From Ardenticatenaceae bacterium (GTDB lineage Bacteria; Chloroflexota; Anaerolineae; Ardenticatenales; Ardenticatenaceae), in assembly GCA_026989095.1 (NCBI GenBank), contig JALSKA010000166.1, positions 1-57,506 of the forward strand: a stretch of 57,506 bases of DNA. The letters are read 5' to 3'. The position numbers and the translations under genes were made by a program. The notes under the pieces were generated by a model. The model was not told the DNA's origin and did no database searches. It was given only the letters and a program-made list of their open reading frames with translations. Shown here piece after piece: positions 34,128 to 35,671 of the stretch (within the stretch, counting starts at the first letter, position 1; the number at the start of each line of letters is the position of its first letter).

Positions 34128-34850
34128 TCATCGGATCAGCCGTTTGCGGCGCAACACCCACCACGTTTCGTGTGGGTAGTCCGCGCGTTCGGCAACGGTG
34201 AGGCCGGCTGCGGCCGCTGCTTCCTCCAGCCTAGCGGGCGTGATGGGGTAGTAGGTGGTCGCGGAGGTGTGAACGCGCCATTTTCCCTCCTGCTCCAGCA
34301 GGTAAAAGGTCGTCCAGATGACGTGCTGGGCCCGGAAGAGGCGCACGTCGAACATGAGCAGGCGGGAACCGTTCATGCGCGCCACGCGACGTGGCACGAA
34401 GAAGGTTCGCTCCCGGAGCAGGCCCTCCCAATCCCGCAGGCCGATGAGGGCGAGGCCCTTGGGGGCCAGAATGCGGGCCATTGCCTCCAGGGAGCGCCCC
34501 TGTTCGGCAGGGGAGTGGCGGGCCAAGGCATCGTGCAGGGCGAAGGCAGCGTCGAAGGGCCCTTCGAGCACGTGGGCCAGGCCCGGCAGCCCGACCCGGT
34601 AGAGGGCCACCGAGACGGGCGCACCGGCCAAGTGTTCGAGGGCCTGGCGAAACAGAGCCTCGTCGGGCTCACAGGCTACCACGTGGAAGCCCCGCTCGGC
34701 CAAGGCGGAGGCGAGTCTGCCCCCGCCGGCGGCCGCGTCAACGACGGTGTGAACGCGGTGTGCCTCCAACACGTGAGCCAGCCGCCGGCCCTCGTCGTCC
34801 ACGTGATCCTGCCAGTGATCGTACAAGTTCCACGGAGAGGGAGTTTTCAC
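34128..34850 (-). CDS. SAM-dependent methyltransferase, class I
   Basis: The 240-residue protein has a Rossmann-type SAM-binding domain. Motif I is VVDAAAGGGRLASALAERG (about 36-54), an acidic residue ends strand two (ACEPDEAL), and a motif IV-like segment is FDAAFALHDALA. The rest resembles small-molecule or ubiquinone/biotin-type methyltransferases (motif LAPKGLALIGLRD). The substrate is unknown. It lies directly between the T-box leader and valS, so it is co-regulated with valine charging. A role in tRNA or amino-acid metabolism is tempting but unproven. The first ATG follows GGTGAAAACTC, a weak ribosome site. Confidence 0.8.
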   Translation of the reverse strand: MKTPSPWNLYDHWQDHVDDEGRRLAHVLEAHRVHTVVDAAAGGGRLASALAERGFHVVACEPDEALFRQALEHLAGAPVSVALYRVGLPGLAHVLEGPFDAAFALHDALARHSPAEQGRSLEAMARILAPKGLALIGLRDWEGLLRERTFFVPRRVARMNGSRLLMFDVRLFRAQHVIWTTFYLLEQEGKWRVHTSATTYYPITPARLEEAAAAAGLTVAERADYPHETWWVLRRKRLIR

Positions 34851-34891
34851 CGTTCACCTCGGGCTGTCCCCACGCCGCACAACACCACAAC

Positions 34892-35193
34892 AAAACGCCT
34901 CCCGCCCACAAGGACGAGAGGCGCCTCTTTCCTCCCGCGGTACCACCTTGTTTGTCCGACACAGGGCCGGACCCCTCGGCCCCGGCGCCCATCTGAGCGC
35001 CGGCAGTGCTGATAACGGGCACCACTCCGGCCGGGCTTACTGGGGCTCATGGGGCCCGTTCAACCCGGCGACTCCCCGGCGACCTTCGGCGGCTCCCTGC
35101 CGAGGGTGGCTCTCAGCCTGCGACCACCCCTCTCTGGCGGCCGACCACCGCCTACTCCTCCGGTTCACCGTCGTTTGCGTTCTCGGCTGTGGT
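34892..35193 (-). ncRNA. T-box riboswitch leader (tRNA-Val) of the methyltransferase-valS operon
   Basis: The leader RNA is read on the minus strand. The conserved T-box sequence AAGGTGGTACCGCG lies at 34936-34949; its TGGT pairs with a tRNA ending in A-CCA. Stem I landmarks are AGTAGG, AGAGAG and GCTGAGAG. A GTC valine specifier candidate lies at 35081-35083. The terminator is a perfect 12-bp stem (34912-34923 with 34896-34907) followed by TTTT. The alternative antiterminator pairs ACAAGG (34946-34951) with CCTTGT (34908-34913), which destroys the terminator. Uncharged tRNA-Val should therefore permit read-through into both genes. The specifier assignment is the least certain part. Confidence 0.88.
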
Positions 35194-35257: not shown

Positions 35258-35287
35258 TTGACAGCGAGGGCCCCGGTCTACTATAAT
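35258..35287 (+). promoter_or_regulatory. Promoter of tmRNA
   Basis: Consensus TTGACA (35258-35263) and consensus TATAAT (35282-35287) are spaced by 18 bp. The start site would be about 35294, leaving a 5' extension of about 27 bases to be removed by RNase P. Confidence 0.88.
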
Positions 35288-35320
35288 AATGTTGCAGAAG
35301 TTGTTCCCTGTGACGGCCGT

Positions 35321-35664
35321 GGGGATGAATGGTTTCGACGGGGAGGTGCCGTCCAGGGGCTGCAGGCGGAGCGCCCGGCTCCTAAAACGGGCACCTAAAC
35401 ATAACTGGCGAACCTCAACTCGCCCTCGCCGCCTAAGCGCGCGGCGACACTCGTCGGCACCTTCCCCCGGTGGGTGCCGAACGGGTGACAGAGAACCGGG
35501 GTGCCGTCAGGCCGGGCCGCACGGCCTGACGAAAGAACGCGCGGCTGGCGGGCTGGCAGCTTTGTTCGGTTGGGCTGCGGCCCGCGAGATGGACCAACCG
35601 AACTAAGCCTGTAGATGCCTCTGGGCGAACTCTCCGGACGCGGGTTCGATTCCCGCCATCTCCA
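35321..35664 (+). ncRNA. ssrA: Transfer-messenger RNA (tmRNA)
   Basis: The ribosome-rescue RNA begins GGGGATGAATGGTTTCGACG, the hallmark tmRNA 5' end. It closes with a T-arm (GCGGGTTCGATTCCCGC) and CATCTCC, which pairs with GGGGATG including the G3-U wobble of alanine acceptors. The discriminator is A at 35664. CCA is not fully encoded (ACCT follows). The tag frame appears to resume at GGC 35407: GEPQLALAA then TAA at 35434-35436, preceded by the non-templated Ala. The ALAA end is the classic ClpXP/Lon degradation signal. Pseudoknot-like complementary blocks flank the tag. It lies next to fmt and not far from clpC. Confidence 0.95.
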
Positions 35665-35671
35665 CCTGCGG

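Follow-up and report, generated by a model that had tools for sequence, protein, structure and literature searches.

Within the 57,506-nucleotide stretch of DNA analysed here (the window; contig JALSKA010000166.1 of an Ardenticatenaceae bacterium, assembly GCA_026989095.1), a transcriptional T-box riboswitch that reads tRNA-Val(GAC) probably controls a two-gene operon in which a methyltransferase is followed by valS, the former being an accessory gene recruited into the valS operon. We place the probability of this explanation as a whole at about three in four. The mode of control is T-box attenuation of the ordinary kind. As long as tRNA-Val is charged, the leader terminator would fold and transcription would halt before the methyltransferase; once uncharged tRNA-Val accumulates, its anticodon would pair with the GUC of the leader and UGGU would bind its free ACCA end, two contacts that would establish the antiterminator and allow both genes to be transcribed. 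We infer the switching from membership of the T-box family, while the leader, the specifier, the matching tRNA and the gene order are laid out in the DNA itself. The methyltransferase would belong to a set of accessory genes that came into this slot on more than one occasion within the class (Anaerolineae), from at least two subfamilies and once before leuS, and it might methylate the amino group of a small molecule, a reaction that would be useful when charging is limiting.

The leader lies on the minus strand and is matched from stem I to the antiterminator by the Rfam T-box model RF00230 (35177-34907; model positions 1-219 of 219, 83.4 bits, E 8.8e-19 in cmscan). Because this score falls below the gathering score of 93, a gathering-level scan of the window lists the tmRNA alone. 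All four T-boxes of the genome score below that threshold, and among relatives 60 of 60 have a significant T-box, 13 of the 60 lacking one above the gathering cut-off. A chance T-box is ruled out by the E-value together with Rfam matches in every methyltransferase-linked leader (19/19). The covariance alignment places AGUA (35156-35153) on the 5′ side of the stem I specifier loop and the valine codon GUC (35083-35081) at the expected specifier position, within the motif GAA-G-GUC-G-CCGG that is also found in relatives; the CCGG strand that follows it pairs with a 5′ CCGG in the Rfam alignment. Any other specifier codon is ruled out, the alternatives in stem I not being placed before the CCGG helix. 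The genome encodes a tRNA-Val(GAC) with the acceptor stem GGGCGCG/CGCGCCC and discriminator A73, which fits the leader UGGU; A73 is present in its tRNA-Val(UAC) and tRNA-Val(CAC) as well. The antiterminator (34949-34910) includes the T-box sequence AAGGUGGUACCGCG, whose UGGU (34945-34942) is the predicted partner of the ACCA end of uncharged tRNA-Val. An intrinsic terminator of 12 pairs closed by a UUGU loop occupies 34923-34892 and, by eye, reads CGCCUCUCGUCC-UUGU-GGGCGGGAGGCG followed by the U-run UUUUGUUG; the hairpin appears in the minimum-energy fold of the leader as well as in its centroid fold. It is absent from the pattern scanner output for the leader region, we think because G-U pairs lengthen the stem into the U-run. 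Since 34923-34910 is common to antiterminator and terminator, the two folds are mutually exclusive.

Upstream, a sigma-70-like promoter on the same strand (35228-35200) comprises TTGACA (35228-35223), a 17-nt spacer and TATACT (35205-35200), agrees with 11 of 12 consensus positions and sits 23-51 bases before the start of the RF00230 match; the pattern scan of the leader region returned two promoter sites against a shuffle mean of 0.0. Back to back with this promoter on the plus strand (35258-35667) stands the tmRNA gene, ssrA (35321-35667), divergent from the T-box operon and equipped with a promoter-like site of its own that matches at 12/12 positions. Downstream of the leader, a Shine-Dalgarno-like GAGGTG (34860-34855) precedes the GTG start of a class I SAM-dependent methyltransferase of 240 aa (34850-34128, minus strand), which belongs to Methyltransf_25 (PF13649; 38.5 bits against a cut-off of 27) and is conserved in four other members of the window's family. 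Its stop codon is separated by 26 bp from the start of valS (34101-31399, minus strand), a valine--tRNA ligase of 900 aa that has the Shine-Dalgarno sequence AGGAGG at 34113-34108 and matches the equivalog TIGR00422 at 1108.4 bits against a cut-off of 612.1. The sequence-only reading had assigned to 34128-35193 a complete T-box leader, a GTC specifier candidate, an antiterminator/terminator switch and a SAM-dependent methyltransferase as first gene. Each of these identifications is borne out and the coordinates are correct, with the operon extending to 31399.

The arrangement recurs well beyond this genome. Within the window's family, the order T-box, methyltransferase, valS is found in five of six genomes (G000, G001, G002, G004 and G005); in the sixth, G003, the T-box stands directly on valS and the methyltransferase is absent. 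In G004, five CRISPR-DR18-like repeats (L088, 4794-5132; 36.3 bits, gathering score 50) immediately precede the T-box. A census of the class covered 133 valS loci, made up of 128 fetched upstream regions and the five of the window's family. A T-box core motif stands within 360 bp of valS in 89 of them and farther away in 29, while 11 have no core and four are cut by a contig end. Five loci with the core 311-360 bp away contain neither a 110-aa reading frame nor a methyltransferase remnant. The 29 occupied slots divide into 16 with an intact methyltransferase, distributed over families f1 (5), f21 (4), f22 (3), f11 (2), f47 (1) and f15 (1), and 13 with another insert. Sixteen linked loci out of 133, spread over six families, rule out a pairing unique to the window's genome. 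Such uniqueness and a specifier for another amino acid were the two outcomes that the sequence-only reading had named as fatal to its proposal, and the specifier is valine. A seventh family contributes G039, one of the 11 loci without a core motif, which nonetheless has an Rfam T-box (48.4 bits) and a methyltransferase remnant of 66 residues (E 3.5e-8). In two genomes, G048 (L104 and L138) and G071 (L220 and L237), there are two valS genes, each with an upstream T-box core.

Specifier codons follow the synthetase. G123, where T-box and methyltransferase end at a contig edge and valS begins another contig, was left out of the 16 linked loci and counted among the valine leaders, of which there are thus 17. 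All 17 read GUC, 16 by a script that finds the GAA motif and that of G087 by covariance alignment (AAA-U-GUC-A). In f9 (G013 and G048), a methyltransferase of the subfamily termed type B below is located between leuS and a T-box with the leucine codon CUC (2/2). Together these leaders make up the 19 with an Rfam T-box (17 Val, 2 Leu), at 35.4 to 131.1 bits. With GUC before valS and CUC before leuS, the specifier tracks the synthetase and not the methyltransferase. One further locus, L151, was left out of the count: its methyltransferase follows a core-like motif at a distance of 371 bp, but no Rfam T-box is present. Outside the class, no T-box-linked methyltransferase was found in 13 type C and 29 type B loci from phylum searches, in which 58 genomes matched type B and loci were taken for part of them. 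A search for related loci in named genomes yielded two relatives only, both remote (26% and 43% identity).

A tree of 96 methyltransferases, built quickly and carrying long-branch warnings, resolves three types, of which the window's enzyme represents type A. A fully supported branch (100%) of length 2.14 lies between type B and the other two types; type A (99) and the T-box-linked type C enzymes (97) form clades of their own, which group together with two unlinked rows at 92% SH-aLRT. Within type B, the valS-linked rows are dispersed over three positions separated by unlinked rows, and the leuS pair stands apart. The valS-linked rows there require three label changes, and the starred branches of the tree would accommodate one origin within B. 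A single ancestral methyltransferase for all linked loci is not supported, given the long branch that splits A and C from B. At least two separate recruitments into the T-box slot are supported by the tree, and three to six are likely.

What these enzymes methylate has to be approached through distant relatives, as no family model above its cut-off is more specific than methyltransferase. For type A, the best model is that of daptide methyltransferases (39.7 bits, well below the cut-off of 175), enzymes that act on amines. The window's methyltransferase reaches 27.6 bits against the glycine/sarcosine N-methyltransferase model, short of the NCBIfam cut-off of 350, and its nearest solved relative, 9icz, is weak (E 1.7e-4). 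A single-protein structure prediction of the enzyme had a mean pLDDT of 45 and was kept out of the interpretation. Type C enzymes are nearest to the glycine/sarcosine N-methyltransferase 5h02 (E 4e-18; 77.5 bits, again under the NCBIfam cut-off of 350), and type C groups with type A, though neither is a member of that family. Type B aligns over nearly its full length (residues 3-242) with NmbA (PDB 9RI2; E 5.4e-29), to which type A has no match at E 0.001. NmbA is a bacillithiol N-methyltransferase reported to act on the nitrogen in the cysteine moiety of bacillithiol, and the part of its description available to us mentions no link to a T-box or a synthetase (PMC12719100). By analogy with these relatives, the substrate could tentatively be the amino group of a small molecule, either of an amino acid or of a thiol that contains cysteine; the idea of amine methylation rests on types B and C, since type A has a weak solved relative only. 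A tRNA substrate is less likely than a small-molecule amine.

The most serious competitor to a recruited accessory function, though it falls short of even odds, is that the methyltransferases are bystanders, common genes that happened to land in a tolerant insertion site behind the T-box terminator. The slot does admit much else: the 13 other valS inserts, named by eye, are VapBC-like pairs, small membrane proteins, epimerase-like, DinB-like and transposase-like genes, or no clear gene, so that location by itself says little about function, and the decayed remnant of G039 indicates that the methyltransferase can be lost. Several of these occupants are of interest in their own right. VapBC-like pairs are found in the T-box-valS slot of three families (L129, L205, L213, L230 and L232), where the valine T-box may thus govern a toxin-antitoxin pair. 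A family of small membrane proteins occupies it in f40 and f44 (L116, L183, L188 and L194), with several tandem copies in L194, and in L224 (G130) the gap is filled by a transposase-like gene and then by repeats of some 100 bp in which several frames are open.

Against chance insertion stands the distribution of the methyltransferases, which comprise two subfamilies in six families at valS and are absent from all 30 gaps exceeding 300 bp between a T-box core and leuS (19 of 70 loci) or ileS (11 of 30 loci), a control in which 60 loci taken from searches span 1500 bp upstream only, such that longer gaps were missed there. Expressed as family-slots, methyltransferases account for 6 of 14 at valS versus 0 of 21 at leuS/ileS (Fisher p 0.0019), or 1 of 22 at the latter (p 0.0083) when the f9 leuS case, which came from the methyltransferase search and not from the census, is added; f22 is counted on both sides, and these p-values are guides only, being based on hand counts of families that are related and hence not fully independent. 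Retention argues in the same direction. The methyltransferase has been kept for long in f1, f21, f11 and f22, and two pairs of congeners differ by dN of 0.23 (the nearest pair) and 0.28 at dS of 1.22 and 1.21, respectively. The gene evolves faster than valS of the same congeners (dN 0.06 and 0.08), and on such sequence comparison it is under purifying selection. Beyond recruitment as such lies a more specific and more tentative proposal, that small-molecule methyltransferases directed at nitrogen, from two unrelated lineages, were repeatedly drawn into the valS (once the leuS) T-box regulon and mark a methylation step needed when charging of branched-chain tRNAs fails, which might, for example, disarm a near-cognate amino acid or an amino-thiol.

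A related and rather doubtful alternative assigns the enzymes to aminoacylation quality control, in which methylation would remove near-cognate amines or thiols, such as homocysteine-like compounds or other misactivated amino acids, in parallel to editing proteins. In the same class, several families have an AlaX-like editing gene between a T-box core and ileS (L379, L382, L389, L390, L392, L395 and L399), an order that suggests that Ile T-boxes also control an editing factor. The window's own genome has a T-box reading AUC (Ile) before an AlaXM-like editing gene (L003, 1501-2534, contig C224; 296.7 bits, cut-off 300), its ileS being on another contig. In G136, a type B methyltransferase directly follows an AlaX-like gene (L149, 1103-2590, minus strand). 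What weighs against the proposal is that all of this is association alone, and that no Rfam T-box was found at the G136 locus. A role in translation quality control, one of the functions put forward by the sequence-only reading, is possible.

Improbable, finally, is a methyltransferase that modifies tRNA-Val or the branched-chain tRNAs and thereby tunes decoding or recognition when valine is short: shared control with the synthetase, by a Val T-box in 17 leaders and by a Leu T-box in two, and a weak likeness of type C to CmoM, the wobble-uridine tRNA methyltransferase (45.7 bits, cut-off 366), speak for it, but the window's enzyme has no RNA-binding domain in Pfam and scores 19.3 bits against CmoM, far below this and every other tRNA methyltransferase cut-off, two unrelated subfamilies occupy the same place, the same kind of enzyme precedes leuS in f9, the slot also holds unrelated genes, and most genomes of the class lack a methyltransferase there. 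Modification specific to tRNA-Val is now less likely. Of the sequence-only reading, the control of methyltransferase and valS by a Val T-box is supported, and the step from that control to a service to tRNA-Val, valine metabolism or quality control is not.

As to the recruited accessory gene, much of its setting is familiar. T-box control of valS is textbook knowledge, and the operon shares with known systems the specifier codon, the T-box sequence, the antiterminator/terminator switch and the control of a synthetase; it differs in having a methyltransferase between leader and valS. In the portion of a comparative T-box survey available to us, valS is among the most widely T-box-regulated genes, the two Chloroflexi analysed have ile and trp T-boxes only, and streptococci have Val T-box genes designated "Val-tRNA ligase related hypothetical" (PMC2494555), which, as far as that portion goes, provide a precedent for an accessory gene beside valS under a Val T-box. 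The words Chloroflexi and methyltransferase do not occur in the accessible part of a second article (PMC7778990), and no description of a T-box-methyltransferase-valS operon was found in the literature searched, a scope to which subscription journals were mostly external.

The recurrent recruitment of methyltransferases into the T-box-valS slot is a modest but real surprise, and it points to a real link between methylation and tRNA charging. Because the T-box reveals the signal to which the operon responds, it also offers a clue to the substrate, in that the enzyme would be needed at times when charged tRNA-Val is scarce. If the pairing is functional, it would bring to light a methylation reaction linked to aminoacylation, and its recurrence over families supplies many orthologues and two enzyme types that could be tested on one short list of substrates.
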